From IMG/VR virus record IMGVR_UViG_3300021963_000062, positions 1 to 64,000 of that record: a stretch of DNA of 64,000 nt. One strand, written 5' to 3'. This stretch comes from a virus. Position 1 is the stretch's first letter. Each line of letters opens with the position of its first letter. Below the pieces are notes generated by a model that was not told the DNA's origin, did no database searches, and saw only the letters and a program-made list of their open reading frames with translations. Below, in pieces: positions 3,189-52,677 of this stretch. A program made the translations under genes and the position numbers.

Positions 3189-4646
3189 GTGGCATATTCC
3201 AACGTTACTCAGTCATTTATAACTAAGAACGGAGTCAATTACGATCTCCAGTATGAACCTTCTAGTGGAAAAGTCCAAATTATTCAACAGAACGCCCCTA
3301 CAGGAACAACTCCAATATATCAAGATGGTAATTGGAATGCATCTGCAACACAAATAGGTTTAACTACTCAAGATAAACAATCATTCCATAACAGTGTTCA
3401 AGAATTAATAAGAAATGCCCATGCAAAATCTGGTGGAAATGCAAAAGGATCCGTTCTTCCACAATTTGCACAATTACAGAATCAAGGAAAACCACCAGGA
3501 CAAACATCAATTACACCAGCAAATGGAACTGCGGTTACAAACAATGGAAGTGGTGGAGGATTGGGTAACGTATTGAATGCAGTTATAAATCCTGAAGAAG
3601 CGTTTAAAAATTTTTCTGTTAATGGAGATAAATTTGGAGTTGGAAATGAAAGTGATTTATTTGACGGAAAAAAGGTTTCTCTCATGTATCCAATCGACAT
3701 GCGTAGAGAAACTCAAGATAATTTTGTAATATCTCAATTTAGATATAAACCATCAAAAGCTGATGCTATTTTTGGTGGTACTGATGTTGCAAAACAAATT
3801 TTAGGAGGTGGATTGCAACAAAGTTCGAATTATAATTTAGAACAACTTATTGGTACTGTATATTTGCCGATGCCTAATGGTGTTCGTGATTCGAATGCGG
3901 TGAATTGGGGGGAGGATGCAATGAATAACCTTGCTGCGGCATCTGCAGCAAATACAACTCAAAATATGGTCGGTGCAGGCGCAGCAGCAGCTGCAGGAAG
4001 TTTACTTGGAGTAGGAGCAGATAAAGCTTTGGCTGCAAAAAATTTCATGGATCTAATGTCAAATCAAGCAGTTAGTCAAGAATTATCCCTTATGCTTGGA
4101 TCTGGGGCAGCATCCAAACTGTTAAAATTGCAAGGATTTGGAGTTGAAACTGAGTCTTTACTTGCAAGAGGTGCAGGAATTGTACCTAATTCAAACCTAG
4201 AATTACTTTTTAATTCTCCGACTCTCAGACAATTTAATTTTACTTATAGATTATCTCCAAGAAGTCATAAAGAATCGGAAACCATAAGGAGAATCATAAG
4301 ATTTTTTAAACAAGGTATGGCTGCTAAGAAAGTAAAAGGAAAAGCAGGTCAAGCCTCTTTTTTCTTAGGCACTCCGAATGTTTTTAGGTTAGAATACAGA
4401 ACAGGAAAAAATTCTTTAATTGATGGTGTAAATAAATTCAAAACCTGTGCTTTAACAGGATTCCAATGTGATTACACTCCAGACGGTTTTTGGGCAGCAT
4501 ATGATGCAGGCCAACCATTATCTGTCACAATGACGATGATGTTCTACGAGTTAGAACCAATATATGATACAGATTATCAAAATAACAATATTTTCGATGG
4601 TCGAGTGGATCTATTCTCAGTTAGCGATAATGCAGTAGGATACTAA
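3189..4646 (+). CDS. 48: Baseplate tail-tube cap gp48
   Basis: A 485-residue protein that starts with GTG directly after the preceding TAA. The C-terminal half carries the gp48 hallmark NSNLELLFNSPTLRQFNFTY (about residues 338-357) followed by RLSPRSHKESETIRRIIRFF. gp48 caps the baseplate hub and, with gp54, is the platform on which the tail tube grows. It is longer than T4 gp48 (about 360 residues); the extra sequence is an N-terminal Gly/Asn/Gln-rich region and a central Ala-rich segment near residues 240-300. It is followed after one base by gene 53. Confidence 0.85.
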   Translation: MAYSNVTQSFITKNGVNYDLQYEPSSGKVQIIQQNAPTGTTPIYQDGNWNASATQIGLTTQDKQSFHNSVQELIRNAHAKSGGNAKGSVLPQFAQLQNQGKPPGQTSITPANGTAVTNNGSGGGLGNVLNAVINPEEAFKNFSVNGDKFGVGNESDLFDGKKVSLMYPIDMRRETQDNFVISQFRYKPSKADAIFGGTDVAKQILGGGLQQSSNYNLEQLIGTVYLPMPNGVRDSNAVNWGEDAMNNLAAASAANTTQNMVGAGAAAAAGSLLGVGADKALAAKNFMDLMSNQAVSQELSLMLGSGAASKLLKLQGFGVETESLLARGAGIVPNSNLELLFNSPTLRQFNFTYRLSPRSHKESETIRRIIRFFKQGMAAKKVKGKAGQASFFLGTPNVFRLEYRTGKNSLIDGVNKFKTCALTGFQCDYTPDGFWAAYDAGQPLSVTMTMMFYELEPIYDTDYQNNNIFDGRVDLFSVSDNAVGY

Positions 4647-4647
4647 A

Positions 4648-6981
4648 ATGGGATACTTCAGAGAACTACCAAATTTACAAGTTCTGAATAGAACAAAAAA
4701 TAATGTTTCTAATGATGAAGTTGTAATAATTAAAAATATATTTAAAAAACCAAAAATTCGTGAAGATTTTTTGTCAATATTTTCTGCATTTGAATATTAC
4801 TCAATTACTGATAATGAAAGACCTGAACAAATTGCGGAAAAAGTATATGGTGACCCCGAATTGGATTGGGTAATCTTAATTACTAATAATATTACAAACG
4901 TTCAAGAACAATGGCCTTTGGATCTGGATTCATTTAACAGATATATGTTAGATAAGTATGGATCCGAAGAAGCATTTTCAAATATTAAACACTATGAAAC
5001 TTTAGCGGTTAAAGACGCTTTCAACAGAGAAGTATTCCCTGCAGGTTTAATCGTAGATGAAGCTTTTTATAATGCACCAGAGTTCGAAAGTTTAGAAGAA
5101 TTGCCTCCTGGAATAACATTTCCTCCAATTTATATTCCGGGAACTCAAGCTTCAGCTACGGCTTCAATTGGTGCAGGTCAATCGATTGCTAATATCAATA
5201 TAACTAATAGTGGAGCTGGATATCAACAAACGCCCAGAGTGTTTATTTCATCACCTCCATTTACTGCAAATGCTTCTGCAAGTTGTTTTATCAATAATTT
5301 TAATGTTTCATCTATAGTCAATCTTGATGGTGGTCAAGGATACAATTCCGCACCTAATGTTTCAATATCAACTGCGCCACAATCAGTCCAAGCTACTGCT
5401 TCTTGTGGACTTGGTACAGGTATTTTCTATGATAAAGTAATTTCTATCTTAGACATACAAGGTGGATCTGGATATGGACTGACTGCTCCAACTGTTACTT
5501 TTACTCCTCCTCCAAATATTATTCAAGGATCTTACTTAAATCAATCTTCTGGATCTGCTGGAAATCAAATAGAAGGATTTTATCTTCGACAAGATGGAGT
5601 AAAATTATATACGGCTAGTATATTTGGAGCAAATCAAATTAAAGAATATAGTTTTCTTGATCCATGGAATGTTACGACAGTTATATTTGAAAAAGAAATC
5701 GACGTAAGTGTAGAGTTTAGTTATTGCACTGGAATTGAGTTTAGTCCAGATGGTTCTAAAATGTATATTACTGGAGGTCAGGGTGGATCTTATAAACTGA
5801 TATCTTATCAACTTTCTACACCATGGGACATATACACTGCAGCAAAATGGCATGAAGTTTCTACAACAAATCCTGGGGGGATTAGATTTAAACCAGATGG
5901 AACAATGTATTATTTCCTTGAGGCTGAAAATCCTGACGTAATTAAACAATATTCTTTATCAAGTCCTTGGAATTTAACTACAAGATCTGGATCTCCAGTA
6001 GGTACATATAACATAACTACGGTTTCTGGAGAAAATAGAATGTTAGGAATATCATTCTTAACTGATGGAACCAAAATGTTTGCTACGGGTGAAGATAATT
6101 CTAGTATATTTGAATTTACTTTTGATACTCCTTGGGATATTACAACTCTTAATTACTCTCTTTCATTTTATGTTGGAGATAAAATAACAAATCCCGTAGA
6201 TGTTTTTATACGATCTGACAAAGAAAAATTCATTGTTGGTGGTGGAGTTGGAGATAAAATGTATGAGTACACTATTGTATCTTTGGCAAAAGGATTTTCT
6301 ACAGTACTAAATGGTTCTGTAAATTCAATTCAAATTACTCAGTCTGGAGTAGGTTATACTGTCGCTCCAACTATCACTCTTAGCTCACCATATCCAGCAG
6401 TAAATGCTACAGCAGTTGCAAACGTATCTGGAGGAATTGTTACCAGTATTTCAATTACTAACGCTGGTTTTGGATATACTATTGCACCATCACTTACCAT
6501 AGATCCCGCTCCAGTTTCTAGACAAGCATCTGCAATAGCTTCTATATCAAATTCTGGAATTTCATCCATTCGTATTCTTGATGGAGGATTAAATTATGTC
6601 AATGCAATTTCTATAACTATTGATCCACCTGAAGATATTTTAAATGTGGTGGAAGGTCAAATTTATAGTCAAAATCAAAAAATGTGGAAGTGGTTTGGTA
6701 CAGAGTGGAAAGAACAAGTAACAGACGAATTCAAATATTTGGATCCAACTATCAATACTCTTGTTAAAATTCCTGGGAATGCAATGTCAAAACCAGTTAC
6801 AAACTATGAATATGAAGTTAATATTAATGAGAAAAAAAGACAGATTTTAATTTTAAAACCACAATATTTGTCAACATTAATTCAAGACCTAAGAAATATG
6901 ATGAAATATGATCCAGAAATGAAAGATTATATCTCGGATAATTTGAAGTCTACATATAATGAGAAACTATTTGGAGTTTAA
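4648..6981 (+). CDS. 53: Baseplate wedge gp53 with large inserted repeat/propeller-like region
   Basis: A 777-residue protein. Residues about 1-130 match gp53 (RPEQIAEKVYGDPELDWVIL is the core signature, compare T4 RPEELANAIYGNPQLYWVLL) and the last 110 resemble the gp53 C-terminal helix region. T4 gp53 is about 196 residues, so some 500 residues are inserted. The insert contains copies of a 'GxGYxxxPxVxI' repeat (e.g. SGAGYQQTPRVFISSP, NAGFGYTIAPSLTID), flanking five copies of 'F-x-x-DG-x-K-M-Y...L-x-x-PW-D-I', which look like propeller blades. The insert may be surface-exposed on the baseplate. See findings. Confidence 0.85.
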   Translation: MGYFRELPNLQVLNRTKNNVSNDEVVIIKNIFKKPKIREDFLSIFSAFEYYSITDNERPEQIAEKVYGDPELDWVILITNNITNVQEQWPLDLDSFNRYMLDKYGSEEAFSNIKHYETLAVKDAFNREVFPAGLIVDEAFYNAPEFESLEELPPGITFPPIYIPGTQASATASIGAGQSIANINITNSGAGYQQTPRVFISSPPFTANASASCFINNFNVSSIVNLDGGQGYNSAPNVSISTAPQSVQATASCGLGTGIFYDKVISILDIQGGSGYGLTAPTVTFTPPPNIIQGSYLNQSSGSAGNQIEGFYLRQDGVKLYTASIFGANQIKEYSFLDPWNVTTVIFEKEIDVSVEFSYCTGIEFSPDGSKMYITGGQGGSYKLISYQLSTPWDIYTAAKWHEVSTTNPGGIRFKPDGTMYYFLEAENPDVIKQYSLSSPWNLTTRSGSPVGTYNITTVSGENRMLGISFLTDGTKMFATGEDNSSIFEFTFDTPWDITTLNYSLSFYVGDKITNPVDVFIRSDKEKFIVGGGVGDKMYEYTIVSLAKGFSTVLNGSVNSIQITQSGVGYTVAPTITLSSPYPAVNATAVANVSGGIVTSISITNAGFGYTIAPSLTIDPAPVSRQASAIASISNSGISSIRILDGGLNYVNAISITIDPPEDILNVVEGQIYSQNQKMWKWFGTEWKEQVTDEFKYLDPTINTLVKIPGNAMSKPVTNYEYEVNINEKKRQILILKPQYLSTLIQDLRNMMKYDPEMKDYISDNLKSTYNEKLFGV

Positions 6982-38213: not shown

Positions 38214-38241
38214 ATTATAAGTTATTTAGCTTATTTGTCAA
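38214..38241 (-). promoter_or_regulatory. Consensus promoter with overlapping late motif
   Basis: TTGACA (38236-38241), 16-base spacer, TATAAT (38214-38219) on the minus strand. A late-type CTAAATAA occupies 38222-38229 in the spacer. The -35 is inside the last codons of the upstream gene. Confidence 0.65.
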
Positions 38242-40446: not shown

Positions 40447-40653
40447 TTAAAATCCCTTTGATTTTGTTTTGGGTTTCTTTTTATCAAGAACTTCAAACAG
40501 ATCTAGTTGACCAGTGGATGACCATTGGAACCAATAAACCTGGGCATCCTCCCAGTTATCAAACTCCATCGTCTTTCCGTTCTTAAAGAATAATTTATAG
40601 TCATGTCTATTATAAGGTAAATCAGAAGTTTGTGCAAAAGTTTTAATTGTCAT
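40447..40653 (-). CDS. Conserved small protein, 68 aa
   Basis: MTIKTFAQTSDLPYNRHDYK, LFFKNGKTMEFDNWEDAQVY, WFQWSSTGQLDLFEVLDKKK. The 'K-N-G-K-x-x-x-F-D-N-x-E-D-A-Q-V-Y-W-F-Q' core is widespread in T4-like cyanophages. Basic C-terminus. Overlaps the LOG-like gene by four bases. Confidence 0.65.
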   Translation of the reverse strand: MTIKTFAQTSDLPYNRHDYKLFFKNGKTMEFDNWEDAQVYWFQWSSTGQLDLFEVLDKKKPKTKSKGF

Positions 40654-41198
40654 AATAAAAGTCCTTTCAAAAGATGAGTAGCCTCAGAGAACCTATCAAC
40701 ATAATGAACTAAGTCCATATCTTCACTACTAATGAATCCATTATCAAGCATTTCTTCCTCAATCCAATGTTTGAGTGTTCTCCACATTCTACCAACACAG
40801 ATAATTGGTTTCTTATCCATGTGACTGACTTGAACTAACTGATAGATCAATGCCATTTCTAGGAGAGTTCCTACACCACCAGGAGTAACGATAAACGCAT
40901 CGCACTCTGCGAATGTCTTAAGTCTGGAGTAGAAAGTCTGGTGTTTTTCATACTCCTGAACATACTTATTAACTCCTTCCTCAAAGGGAAGATAGATTGC
41001 TTCTGCAATAGAACAGAGGTGATCTCCACCGCATCCTTCTATTGCACCCTTATTGGCGGCTTCCATAGTTCCAGGGCCGCCTCCAGTTACTACTGTCCAA
41101 CCTTGTGCAGAGATATTTCTTCCGAGTTTTTCTACTGCCTTATAGAGATCGGATTCCGGATTCGTTCTTGCAGAACCAAAGATTGCTACTTTTTTCAT
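40650..41198 (-). CDS. LOG-family (Rossmann-fold, TIGR00730-like) nucleotide phosphoribohydrolase
   Basis: 182 residues with both LOG signatures: GGGPGTMEAANKGA (residues 39-52) and TPGGVGTLLEMALI (PGGxGTxxE, 106-114), after an N-terminal VAIFGSA strand. LOG enzymes remove ribose 5-phosphate from adenine nucleotides, producing cytokinins in plants; bacterial relatives act as AMP/PPGN hydrolases. In a phage it might serve nucleotide salvage or pyrimidine/purine base supply. Overlaps the Mom-like gene by ATGA. Confidence 0.82.
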   Translation of the reverse strand: MKKVAIFGSARTNPESDLYKAVEKLGRNISAQGWTVVTGGGPGTMEAANKGAIEGCGGDHLCSIAEAIYLPFEEGVNKYVQEYEKHQTFYSRLKTFAECDAFIVTPGGVGTLLEMALIYQLVQVSHMDKKPIICVGRMWRTLKHWIEEEMLDNGFISSEDMDLVHYVDRFSEATHLLKGLLL

Positions 41199-41845
41199 TT
41201 AAGTTTATAGACGTAAATGTGTTTACCAGGGGTTTCAATGTACTTTGCATCACCACTTTCCAAAGCATCTTTAACTCTTTGTGCGAAAGGCTTGAGATTT
41301 TTATTCCCATACCTATCTATATGATAAGTTCGGATACATTTATCGTGATATATCTTACCATCATAATCAATAACACGACCCTTGGCAGTCATGCCACAAT
41401 GTTCAAAGTTGGATGCCTTATAGATTGTACCCTGATGATTATGAAACGTGTCTGCGTAGGATACAACAACCTTATATGATGTGTTCTTCTTCAACCACCT
41501 CAGAGTTTTTCCAATAAAATAACTCTCAGTATTTCTAGGAGTATTATCAATACAACAAAGACGACGTAGTTCTACAACTTGATCCTCAGAATCTGCATAC
41601 TTTTTCCAAGTATTAGCCATTCCTAAAGGGCCATAGATCATAGCACCAATAAGATTTTCATTATAAAATAAACCAAAAACATTAGAGATTCTAAGACCAT
41701 TAACATTAGAAGAATAATGCCAAGTTTCAACAAAGTCTCTAACGTATTGAATGGTAGTAGGTTTGACTACAAAATCCTTTACGTTTACATCCCTGCAGTC
41801 AAGTTCTTCAAACAGTAGGGATGATAAAGGATTCATAGTGTTCAT
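41195..41845 (-). CDS. Mom-like GNAT DNA-modification protein
   Basis: About 216 residues. It carries the Mom-type core: VVELRRLCCIDNTPRNTESY followed by FIGKTLRWLKKN, and later VSYADTFHNHQGTIYKASNF and EHCGMTAKGR. In phage Mu Mom (a GNAT-fold protein) the equivalent region modifies adenine to a methylcarbamoyl form, protecting DNA from restriction. ATG at 41845 and 41836 are possible starts. The gene overlaps the endonuclease-like gene by about 30-40 bases and lies behind a consensus promoter. Confidence 0.78.
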   Translation of the reverse strand: MNTMNPLSSLLFEELDCRDVNVKDFVVKPTTIQYVRDFVETWHYSSNVNGLRISNVFGLFYNENLIGAMIYGPLGMANTWKKYADSEDQVVELRRLCCIDNTPRNTESYFIGKTLRWLKKNTSYKVVVSYADTFHNHQGTIYKASNFEHCGMTAKGRVIDYDGKIYHDKCIRTYHIDRYGNKNLKPFAQRVKDALESGDAKYIETPGKHIYVYKLK

Positions 41846-42350
41846 CAAATTTTTTCTTTAGTTCGTCCCTAATGATAATTTTAACATCATTTACATGAGA
41901 AAGAAAGTCTTCCCATTTATTCTCAACACCAAGATATTTAAAAATAGCTATTCCATGAAGGTGACGAATACCATCCTTCATGTAATCATTCTTTTTTCGA
42001 TCTTCCCAATATGCATAAATAGGAATCTTATTCTTTTCTGCGGCAGACTCCTTCAATTTAACATTGTTAGCCTTTTTAGAAGAAGAATTATCAGTCGCAG
42101 GATTCTTTTTTTGTTCAACAACGATACTAGAGTTCTCCCAATCAGTCTTACATCCAACTCCAAGATGTTTTGCTTCGGGGTCTGGATCCCACTCAGGAAT
42201 TACTTCTTCAATATAATCTCCAATTAATTGGGCAATACGACTGCCAAGAAACACACCACGATTTTCGGAAAGATCCAGTAGAAAATCATAATCAAACTGA
42301 GACACATCATAATTTTGGAGACGAGTCTTCAGGTTGTCAAGAGCAGACAT
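41808..42350 (-). CDS. Type II restriction endonuclease-like protein (Eco47II-type PD-(D/E)XK)
   Basis: 180 residues. Asp70 and Glu79-x-Lys81 (CKTDWENSSIVVEQKK) form a PD-(D/E)XK catalytic centre, followed by NPATDNSSSKKANNVKLKES, very like the 'N-T-x-N-S-S-S-x-K' string of Eco47II-family enzymes. IYAYWEDRKKNDYMKDGIRH and the C-terminal helix HGIAIFKYLG complete it. It would cut DNA lacking protection, e.g. host DNA, or be a decoy. It is transcribed first, from a perfect promoter, with Mom directly behind. Confidence 0.7.
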   Translation of the reverse strand: MSALDNLKTRLQNYDVSQFDYDFLLDLSENRGVFLGSRIAQLIGDYIEEVIPEWDPDPEAKHLGVGCKTDWENSSIVVEQKKNPATDNSSSKKANNVKLKESAAEKNKIPIYAYWEDRKKNDYMKDGIRHLHGIAIFKYLGVENKWEDFLSHVNDVKIIIRDELKKKFDEHYESFIIPTV

Positions 42351-42353
42351 AAT

Positions 42354-42385
42354 AAAAAAAGGAGATCTCTTTAAGAGGTCTCCTT
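42354..42385 (-). terminator. Intrinsic terminator upstream of the restriction/Mom operon
   Basis: A 13-bp stem with one G-T pair (AAGGAGACCTCTT with AAGAGATCTCCTT, minus strand) followed by seven T (42354-42360). It terminates transcription from the thioredoxin-like operon; the -10 of the next promoter is directly beside it, so its 5' arm is also at the expected start of the downstream transcript. Confidence 0.7.
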
Positions 42386-42414
42386 ATTATAGTGCGATAG
42401 TTCATCCTTGTCAA
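42386..42414 (-). promoter_or_regulatory. Perfect sigma-70 consensus promoter for endonuclease/Mom operon
   Basis: TTGACA (42409-42414), exactly 17 bases, TATAAT (42386-42391) on the minus strand. The transcript would start near 42379, about 30 bases before the ATG at 42350. There is no clear Shine-Dalgarno. A full-consensus promoter indicates immediate strong transcription by host RNA polymerase. Confidence 0.85.
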
Positions 42415-47871: not shown

Positions 47872-47900
47872 AGTATATCTATCTTACTATAAAATGTCAA
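47872..47900 (-). promoter_or_regulatory. Sigma-70-like promoter for cupin-gmd operon
   Basis: TTGACA (47895-47900), 17-base spacer, TATACT (47872-47877) on the minus strand. The -35 is part of the first codons of the divergent radical SAM gene. Confidence 0.6.
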
Positions 47901-48733
47901 CCAATCTAATGGATGTAAAATTAGATATACACATAACACATAATTGCAATTTGACCTGCGAAAGTTGTTCCGATTTCACAAACGTTGGTTTAAATTGGAT
48001 GATAACTAAAGATGAATTTGCATCTTGGATAAAAAACTGGAACAAAAGAATTAGTCCAGATCAACTTGAAATATTAGGTGGAGAACCAACATTACATAAG
48101 GATCTAGAAGAATTACTGTACATATCAAGAGAATTATGGGGTTCTGAACAAAAAATAACTTTATACACTAATGGTTTTTTCGTACACCTTCATCCAAATT
48201 TAGGAAAAGTGTTGAGAGAAACTAATATAAATCTTGAAGTTTCAATACACAGTATAGAAAAACATTATTTAAAAAAAATAAAAGATAATATTTTATTACT
48301 GAAGAAATGGAAATCTGAAGGTACTGATATTTTTTTCCTTGATTGTTTTAGTGATTGGAGAAAAATATATAAAGGTCATGGTATTTCAATATTGCCTTAC
48401 GAGGATAATGATCCCGAGTCCAGTTGGAAAAATTGTTTTACATCTCCATGGAAATGTTTTCAATTATATGAAGGAAATCTTTGGAAATGTCCACCAATAA
48501 CATATTTAAAAGAACTGAATAAAAAACATGAAATTTCTAAAAAATGGGATCCATATTTAAAATATGAACCCCTAAAAGCCGATTGTTCTGATGAAGAATT
48601 AATGAAATTTTGGAATAGTGAATGTATAGATATATGTGCTATGTGCCCTGCTAAGAAAATCAACATAGAAGTAAGAAGAGATCCTCTAATGAGTGTTTCG
48701 GAATTAGAAAAGTATTACCAACAAAACACTTAA
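47894..48733 (+). CDS. Radical SAM protein, tandem paralogue A
   Basis: 279 residues: HITHNCNLTCESCSDFTNVG (CxxxCxxC, Cys18/22/25), EILGGEPTLHKDLEELL, a C-terminal region with cysteines (WKNCFTSPWKCFQLYEGNLW, KCPPITYL, SECIDICAMCPAKK) typical of SPASM/auxiliary cluster binding. About 65% of positions match the next gene. The tandem pair stands on the plus strand among minus-strand sugar genes. The substrate is unknown. Confidence 0.75.
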   Translation: MSTNLMDVKLDIHITHNCNLTCESCSDFTNVGLNWMITKDEFASWIKNWNKRISPDQLEILGGEPTLHKDLEELLYISRELWGSEQKITLYTNGFFVHLHPNLGKVLRETNINLEVSIHSIEKHYLKKIKDNILLLKKWKSEGTDIFFLDCFSDWRKIYKGHGISILPYEDNDPESSWKNCFTSPWKCFQLYEGNLWKCPPITYLKELNKKHEISKKWDPYLKYEPLKADCSDEELMKFWNSECIDICAMCPAKKINIEVRRDPLMSVSELEKYYQQNT

Positions 48734-48765: not shown

Positions 48766-49680
48766 ATGACTACGAATAAAGATTTAGGCCCCAAAACAAC
48801 TACTCAAGATCCATGGATAATTGCTATTCATATAACTCATAATTGCAATTTAACTTGTGATAGTTGTTCAGACATGACTAATATTGGTCTGAACTGGATG
48901 ATAACTAAAGATGAATTTGTATCTTGGATAAAAAATTGGAATGAAAGAATCAAACCAGATCAATTCCATATATTAGGTGGAGAACCAACATTACATAAGG
49001 ATCTAGAAGAATTCTTATACCTGGCTCGAGAACTATGGGGCCCAGACCAAGAGATCAGATTGATGAGTAATGGATTTTTTGTAGATCGTCATAAAAATTT
49101 AGGAAAAGTTCTTAAGGAAACTAATACATCAATCGATATTGGCCTCCATAGTAAAGAAAAAGATTACTTAGGTAAACTAAAAGATAATATTATATTGATG
49201 AAGAAGTGGAGAAAAGATGAAGGAACAACAGTAAACTTCATGGACTTCACTGAAGAAGGTTCAGGTTGGAATCCAAGTGGTAGAACTTGGAGAAGAATAT
49301 ACAAAGGTTATGGTGCATCAATGTTACCTTATGAAGACAATGATCCAGAATCTAGTTGGGAAAATTGTTGGATGGATGGTGCAAGATGTTTCCAATTATA
49401 TCAAGGAAACCTCTGGAAGTGTCCACCAATAACATACTTATCAGAGGCAAAGAAAAAATATGGTGATCTACTATCGGAAAAGTGGGATCCATATCTTGCA
49501 TACGAACCTTTAAAGCCAGAGTGTTCTGACGAAGAGTTAATGCAATTCTGGAAGAGTGAGTGCCTAAGTATATGTTCCATGTGTCCCGCTAAGCCACATT
49601 ACATAGATAATCTAAAAAATCCTCTTATGAGTGTCTCGCAGTCCGAAAAATACTATCAGTCTACAGAACCAGTAACTTGA
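48766..49680 (+). CDS. Radical SAM protein, tandem paralogue B
   Basis: 304 residues: a longer N-terminus (MTTNKDLGPKTTTQDPWIIA), then HITHNCNLTCDSCSDMTNIG (Cys27/31/34), HILGGEPTLHKDLEEFL and the same Cys-rich C-terminus (ENCWMDGARCFQLYQGNLWK, ECLSICSMCPAKPHY). It has an extra loop of about 15 residues in the middle (EEGSGWNPSGRTWRR). It converges with and overlaps the next minus-strand oxygenase gene by 25 bases. Confidence 0.75.
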   Translation: MTTNKDLGPKTTTQDPWIIAIHITHNCNLTCDSCSDMTNIGLNWMITKDEFVSWIKNWNERIKPDQFHILGGEPTLHKDLEEFLYLARELWGPDQEIRLMSNGFFVDRHKNLGKVLKETNTSIDIGLHSKEKDYLGKLKDNIILMKKWRKDEGTTVNFMDFTEEGSGWNPSGRTWRRIYKGYGASMLPYEDNDPESSWENCWMDGARCFQLYQGNLWKCPPITYLSEAKKKYGDLLSEKWDPYLAYEPLKPECSDEELMQFWKSECLSICSMCPAKPHYIDNLKNPLMSVSQSEKYYQSTEPVT

Positions 49681-51258: not shown

Positions 51259-52677
51259 TTAATTAAAAATTTTTACGTTATAAGTCTTTTCCCATTCTAT
51301 CATATTACTATGATCGTTGACAATAGGATATCCTTTAATGTTCAAACTAGTATTTAAAAGGATTGGACAACCGGTTTTATTTTTCCATTGAAATAAAAGA
51401 TCATAAAACTTTGGGTTGTCCTTCTTACTTAAAACCTGAACTCTACTAGTACAATCAACATGTTGTATAGAAGTCAACTCTTTTGATTTACATCTTACAG
51501 CAAACTGCATATACTTATTACCACCTTCAAAATATTCCTTGGCATATTCTTCCAAAACAACTGGTGCAAATGGTCTGAACTTTTGTCTTTTTTTTATCTC
51601 ATTGACTTTATCTTTTATAAAAGGATCTCTAGGATCTGCAATTAAACTTCTATTACCTAAAGCTCTAGGGCCAAATTCCGATTTGCCCCTTGCAATACCA
51701 CAAACTTTTTTATCTAAAAGATAATCAACAATTTCTTCATTTGTAGAGTTATATCCCATATCATATCCAAGATATGGTCCTTTCCAATCAATGTGTTTTT
51801 TCTTATGTGCAAGAACCGATCCAATAGAAGAACCACTATCTCCAGGAGAAGGCATAATCCATATATTATCATAATAATTGTATGCAATTGGATTTGCAGA
51901 ACAATTCAATGCACATCCGCCCATCACTACAAGATTATCAGACTTAACCAAAGATTTAGATTTCTCTAATACATTTTTGAATAAAATTTCATAAACTGAT
52001 TGTGTTCCTGCAGCAATATCAAAATAATCCTCTTCCGTTTTAAGATCCGATCTCCAATTTAAACAACCTTTATGAAGATTATTTTTAAACCTAAGATCTT
52101 CCCCAATAAAATCATCAAAAATATCACAAGTCAATCTACTAGGATCTCCATAAGCAGACATACCCATCAGAATATATTCTTCTTCGTTTGGTTTCAGTCC
52201 GCACCTTTGTGTCATTGCAGAGTACCAAAGTCCGATACTATGTGGATAATTACGTTGAAATTTTAGTTTTAACTTGTTTCCCTGAGCTTCCCAGATTGTG
52301 AGTGTTTGAAATTCACCTATAGCGTCAATAACCACCACGCAACATTCATCAAACTCGCTGGTGAAATAACCAGCACAAGCATGAGTATAGTGATGATCAT
52401 AATACTTGATTGGAACATCAACATACTTTTTGACGTTCTGGATCCAACCCTGGCCCGCAAGAAGTTGTCTAAGTGTTTTCTTATATGGGTTCTCATACCA
52501 ACATACTAGCTCTGGTTTCCCAAACTTTAGTGCATAGTTGATTATGCCATCATTCAACTGAGAATCATTTTTGACGCCACTAAATCTCTCACTTTCACTT
52601 GCAAAAACAAGAGTGTCCTTAACAAAAACCGAAAGTGCAGCATTGTGACTTTCCGATGATATTCCCCAGGTTATCAT
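51259..52677 (-). CDS. O-carbamoyltransferase (NodU/CmcH/TobZ type)
   Basis: 472 residues with all landmarks: ASESERFSGVKND, YYDHHYTHACAGYF (HHxxHA, residues 95-100), VVMGGCALNCSANP, MPSPGDSGSSIGSVL, and SEFGPRALGNRSLIADPRDP, NTSLNIKGYPIVND. The length is somewhat under the usual 550-600. It transfers carbamoyl to a hydroxyl, probably on a deoxysugar made by the cluster. Overlaps the ColD-like gene by four bases. Confidence 0.88.
   Translation of the reverse strand: MITWGISSESHNAALSVFVKDTLVFASESERFSGVKNDSQLNDGIINYALKFGKPELVCWYENPYKKTLRQLLAGQGWIQNVKKYVDVPIKYYDHHYTHACAGYFTSEFDECCVVVIDAIGEFQTLTIWEAQGNKLKLKFQRNYPHSIGLWYSAMTQRCGLKPNEEEYILMGMSAYGDPSRLTCDIFDDFIGEDLRFKNNLHKGCLNWRSDLKTEEDYFDIAAGTQSVYEILFKNVLEKSKSLVKSDNLVVMGGCALNCSANPIAYNYYDNIWIMPSPGDSGSSIGSVLAHKKKHIDWKGPYLGYDMGYNSTNEEIVDYLLDKKVCGIARGKSEFGPRALGNRSLIADPRDPFIKDKVNEIKKRQKFRPFAPVVLEEYAKEYFEGGNKYMQFAVRCKSKELTSIQHVDCTSRVQVLSKKDNPKFYDLLFQWKNKTGCPILLNTSLNIKGYPIVNDHSNMIEWEKTYNVKIFN

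Follow-up and report, generated by a model that had tools for sequence, protein, structure and literature searches.

A candidate restriction-modification-like gene pair with a Mom-family DNA modifier in T4-like cyanophages

Why would a cyanophage carry a gene for a nuclease-like protein that overlaps a gene for a Mom-type DNA modifier? The question is raised by a locus in a 64,000 nt window (the whole stretch of DNA that was analysed) contained in a 97 kb viral record, which psbA and psbD genes and the best DNA matches assign to a T4-like Synechococcus phage. The original prediction held that the two genes form a restriction-modification pair in which the phage is protected by Mom-type base acylation and not by methylation.

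Arrangement of the locus

Gene calls place both genes on the minus strand at the positions first proposed. The putative endonuclease gene (41808–42350, 180 aa) precedes the mom gene (41195–41845, 216 aa), and the end of the former overlaps the start of the latter by 38 nt (41808–41845); such an overlap is seen in all complete relatives. On the same strand, the mom stop codon is overlapped, through an ATGA, by a SLOG/LOG-like gene (40650–41198) whose product is lysine-decarboxylase-like and is DprA-like in PHROGs. LOG-type enzymes cleave N6-substituted AMP, and a link between this gene and modified adenine is attractive but unsupported. As a third component of the system the gene was rejected, because it is absent beside mom in other loci.

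Elsewhere in the window, a carbamoyltransferase-like protein was recognized by reading at 51259–52677. An annotated Nol-like carbamoyltransferase also lies near mom in phage S-SSM7 (L024, 6084–7619), and both proteins are probably glycan-related. Two tandem paralogues on the plus strand (47894–48733 and 48766–49680) carry, by reading only, a C-x3-C-x2-C motif of the radical-SAM type.

The sigma-70-type promoter that had been proposed upstream of the pair (TTGACA-N17-TATAAT, 42386–42414, minus strand) matches the consensus at 12 of 12 positions. Approximately 0.24 perfect sites of this kind are expected per window and two were found, the second promoter-like site (TTGACA...TATAAT) residing at 38214–38241 on the minus strand. 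The earlier analysis had missed an intrinsic-terminator-like hairpin on this strand (AAGGAGAcCTCTtaaAGAGaTCTCCTT followed by a T tract, 42351–42385; fold of -12.3 kcal/mol). It directly follows the -10 box and lies between this box and the nuclease ATG, so that the predicted transcription start falls inside the hairpin. We infer that the hairpin would terminate upstream transcription, and that the pair would be transcribed from a fresh start.

When the upstream regions of related loci were read, a promoter adjoining a hairpin was found in many of them. In the window and in many relatives, the promoter overlaps or abuts the stem-loop terminator at the module boundary, which is the arrangement that characterizes PeSL promoter-terminator cassettes. 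Such cassettes have been credited with the shuffling of genes among T4-like phages (Arbiol 2010 and Comeau 2014, as cited in PMC4503421). What is shared with the cassettes described there, an early-type promoter beside a stem-loop at a module boundary, is a likeness of architecture only, and the element may play a comparable role in gene shuffling. Six loci (L005, L006, L007, L019, L022 and L045) have a very compact terminator-promoter element upstream of the nuclease, in which the -35 TTGAC is located in the loop or 3′ arm of the terminator hairpin and the T tract serves as the spacer before a TATAAT-like box.

Identity of the modifier and of the nuclease-like protein

The mom gene matches the Pfam Mom family (PF25680) with 123.5 bits (cutoff 27.1; E = 1.2e-35), phrog_1384 in PHROGs (2.7e-60) and, in the PDB, the structure of phage Mu Mom (8bv8; 2.7e-10). 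Residues 23–182 align with the Mu protein, with which they share, besides the family, the E-L-x-R...PRN and A-D...Y-x-A-S-N-F segments; the Mom-type segments pointed out previously are thus present. These profile and structure searches, which had been proposed as a check, give firm support to the assignment of 41195–41845 as a genuine Mom-family DNA modifier, in this case a predicted adenine modification gene. Relatives of this Mom occur in 327 phage records.

Assignment of the overlapping protein, which we term type A, is less direct. The predicted catalytic motif D70-x8-E79-x-K81 (42108–42143, minus strand) is located as originally described, and its three named residues are invariant in an alignment of 14 type A homologues. 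The N-x4-N-S-S-S-x-K string (N83 to K93) is also present, with N83, N88, S91 and K93 invariant, but the Eco47II label attached to it was dropped: no type A member reached the gathering cutoff of RE_Eco47II (PF09553), and only 1 of 14 matched at all (E = 0.27). There was no above-threshold match for type A in Pfam, PHROG, NCBIfam or PADLOC, and none with RE_EcoO109I (PF14511). A tblastn search of 50,697 phage records revealed no relative, and 27 loci with relatives were found in IMG/VR. The sole match in a genome collection lies in a contig of a Formosa MAG, where it again forms part of the nuclease-mom pair; a bacterial origin of type A was therefore rejected, and the contig is probably a misbinned phage contig. 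Foldseek searches with a type A model (pLDDT 74) yielded no significant structural match, the best PDB entry being HindIII (E = 0.34), and a viral structure library gave nothing significant.

More can be learned from a second cyanophage nuclease family (type B), which occupies the same slot before mom, as in phage DSL-LC03. A type A profile retrieves type B proteins (best E = 2.2e-8), and hhalign comparison of the two families gives 92.8% (E = 3.9e-7) with an alignment that is gapped near the motif. By ungapped scoring around the motif, a register of +15 is best by far (16.0 versus -2.8 for the next), and this register pairs D70 with D85, E79 with Q94, K81 with K96 and K98 with K113 (type A and type B respectively). 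For the segment around A122–143 the top register is +14, with a score that exceeds those of all 300 shuffles. The predicted secondary-structure elements of the two families come in a matching order, shifted by 15 residues almost throughout. In type B, Q replaces E and the D-QxK centre is retained; centres of this kind are found in Mrr/MspJI-type nucleases.

The type B model (pLDDT 90) aligns with EcoO109I (1wtd) in Foldseek with a probability of 1.00 and a TM score of 0.60, at an E value of only 3.1e-3. L033, a member of type B, scores 24.9 bits against PF14511 and clears the cutoff of 22.5 bits; three other members fall below it or match weakly. In Pfam, type B also resembles the Holliday-junction endonuclease family PF10107 weakly, and PDB sequence searches with type A, type B or L033 returned no meaningful match. 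From these profile and register comparisons, we conclude that type A is distantly related, in active-site register, to the EcoO109I-like type B family. Type A is thus probably a PD-(D/E)XK enzyme, by virtue of the type B link more than of its own fold. The predicted nuclease identity draws support from motif conservation and from the relationship, seen at the profile level, with a family of EcoO109I type; the protein's own structure search was not significant.

Coupling of the two genes and exchange of the nucleases

The survey of gene neighbourhoods that had been suggested for the pair showed that it recurs. In viral contigs scanned with type A seeds, an overlapping downstream mom was present in 27 of 27 loci with enough sequence; with type B seeds the count was 23 of 23, and two more contigs end first. 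The combined 50 of 50 comprises loci that are mutually related and do not represent 50 independent events. The genomes in which the pair was detected all come from metagenomes. In every locus found the nuclease precedes and overlaps mom, and no mom-less nuclease copy was observed among nuclease-seeded viral loci with enough sequence. Scans seeded with mom revealed 26 loci with type A, 14 with type B, 17 with neither and one at a contig edge, such that mom lacks a nuclease in 17 of 57 loci. The dependence thus runs in one direction, in that the nuclease is accompanied by mom whereas mom can do without a nuclease. Nuclease and modifier genes are therefore adjacent and co-inherited (50 of 50), as expected of type II restriction-modification systems, but the candidate protector is Mom in place of a methyltransferase.

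The idea that mom is coupled to nucleases in phages at large was rejected, since five of six non-cyanophage phages examined have no annotated nuclease neighbour. The exception is Geobacillus phage vB_GthS_PK3.6 (L025), where an HNH endonuclease gene (3514–4023) overlaps the mom gene (3965–4696); this may be an unrelated third kind of Mom-coupled nuclease. Five viral contigs (L060–L063 and L080) carry a tandem overlapping pair of different Mom-like genes, the upstream one Mom-like by reading.

In a maximum-likelihood tree of Mom, the two partner types, A and B, are interleaved, with five changes each, at least two and three of which are forced by well-supported branches, and moms of the same clade occur without an upstream nuclease. 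DNA identity in three pairs of type A and type B loci is approximately 80–90% through mom (approximately 70–85% in one pair) and falls in a sharp step at the mom start to approximately 40–55% upstream of it. Given this interleaving and the collapse of identity at the mom start, we conclude from the sequences that nucleases are swapped above a retained mom, with the 38 nt overlap as the breakpoint region. Median dN/dS values of 0.19 for type A, 0.22 for type B and 0.08 for mom show that purifying selection acts on all three genes.

Possible function and comparison with known systems

Overall, we assign a probability of roughly 0.6 to the reading of the pair as a restriction-modification-like module carried by the phage, in which Mom is the protector. 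This reading follows from three properties of the nuclease, namely that it occurs only with the modifier, that it is replaceable without replacement of the modifier and that it is kept by selection. In such a module, the host-type (early) promoter would drive both proteins, and Mom would attach a bulky group of the acyl type (in Mu, methylcarbamoyl) to adenine N6 in many contexts of the phage DNA. The nuclease would then cut DNA without the Mom mark, be it the host chromosome, superinfecting phages or both. The opposite arrangement, modification-dependent (type IV-like) cutting, was set aside because a co-encoded Mom would then make the genome of the phage itself a target.

Classical type II systems consist of a nuclease and a modifier with one common specificity. 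Replacing the nuclease above an unchanged mom would destroy this match, unless Mom is broad. A broad Mom could let a single mom protect against nucleases of differing specificity, and exchange of the nuclease ORF while mom stays would follow from shielding of this type. More tentatively, and with the odds somewhat against it, cyanophages may possess restriction-modification without methylation in which a broad adenine-acylating modifier is the general immunity partner, the nuclease is a plug-in and the two specificities are uncoupled.

Alternatively, Mom might act as it does in Mu and many other phages, as a plain anti-restriction modifier. The nuclease would then be a REase-fold enzyme of recombination, repair or packaging type whose gene simply has a place in the same early operon. 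This explanation accommodates the mom genes of RaK2, phiSHEF2, ICP1, Darwin, Phynn and S-SSM7, which have no annotated nuclease neighbour, and REase-fold resolvases have been proposed in phages (PMC7824862). The weak type B matches to PF10107 would likewise suit a recombination or repair role. We nevertheless consider it unlikely, as a housekeeping nuclease should occur without mom too and overlapping mom genes were found in all 50 nuclease loci, with two distinct nuclease families filling one slot.

Less probable again is a selfish, homing-type nuclease gene that invades a conserved mom locus to little benefit of the phage. The sharp breakpoint at the mom start, the repeated gain or exchange of nucleases, the promoter-hairpin cassettes upstream and the HNH gene that overlaps mom in phage PK3.6 are all compatible with such a gene. 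Set against these are the restriction-enzyme fold of the EcoO109I-like type B relatives, the long-term purifying selection, and the position of the nuclease always before and overlapping mom, with mom-less copies not found. The least probable proposal, that the upstream protein is a specificity or regulatory subunit of Mom with structural D, E and K residues, comparable to Com, which activates mom translation in phage Mu according to PMC6483171, would fit the strict co-occurrence with mom and the lack of a family match and weak fold search of type A, but it conflicts with invariant catalytic-type residues whose register agrees with that of an EcoO109I-like family, with retention of the D-QxK centre in type B despite Q for E, and with same-clade moms that have no upstream protein.

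If the restriction-modification-like reading is true, cyanophages carry an offensive system for self/non-self discrimination based on a bulky adenine mark, with bearing on host genome breakdown and on phage-phage competition in co-infected cells. It makes the clear prediction that a single mom suffices as protection from several nucleases that are only distantly related, and the published Mom-REase idea would gain small, separable and easily expressed proteins for its testing.

Several known systems share parts of this arrangement. To our knowledge, the Mom of phage Mu has no nuclease partner. EcoO109I is protected by a methyltransferase, and its likeness to the cyanophage nucleases consists of the type B model fold, one type B Pfam match and the PD-(D/E)XK centre, type A itself being outside the Pfam family. 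A similar locus is present in Synechococcus phage DSL-LC03 (OR003938), a metagenome-assembled genome in which an annotated 'type II restriction endonuclease' overlaps a 'Mom-like' gene in the same order and by 38 nt. Its mom is 71% identical to that of the window, whereas its nuclease is type B and distant from the type A protein of the window. The paper on DSL-LC03 does not discuss the pair.

Marseilleviruses and chloroviruses are likewise lytic viruses bearing a nuclease and a protective modification, and action against competitor viruses or host DNA has been proposed for their restriction-modification systems (PMC7253447). In the marseillevirus, protection is by N6-methyladenine from a methyltransferase, in contrast to Mom here (PMC7253447). 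Mom-REase domain fusions in jumbo phages were predicted by Iyer et al. (2021; PMC7824862) to be restriction-modification systems with the same logic, whereby phage DNA is protected and host or superinfecting DNA is attacked. The suggestion that such a pairing had not been described is therefore only partly right, given both this proposal and the annotated DSL-LC03 pair. The concept is known already; what is new, in comparison with the fusions of jumbo phages, is a discrete pair of separate, overlapping genes in T4-like cyanophages, in which two apparently swappable nuclease families show a one-way dependence on Mom.
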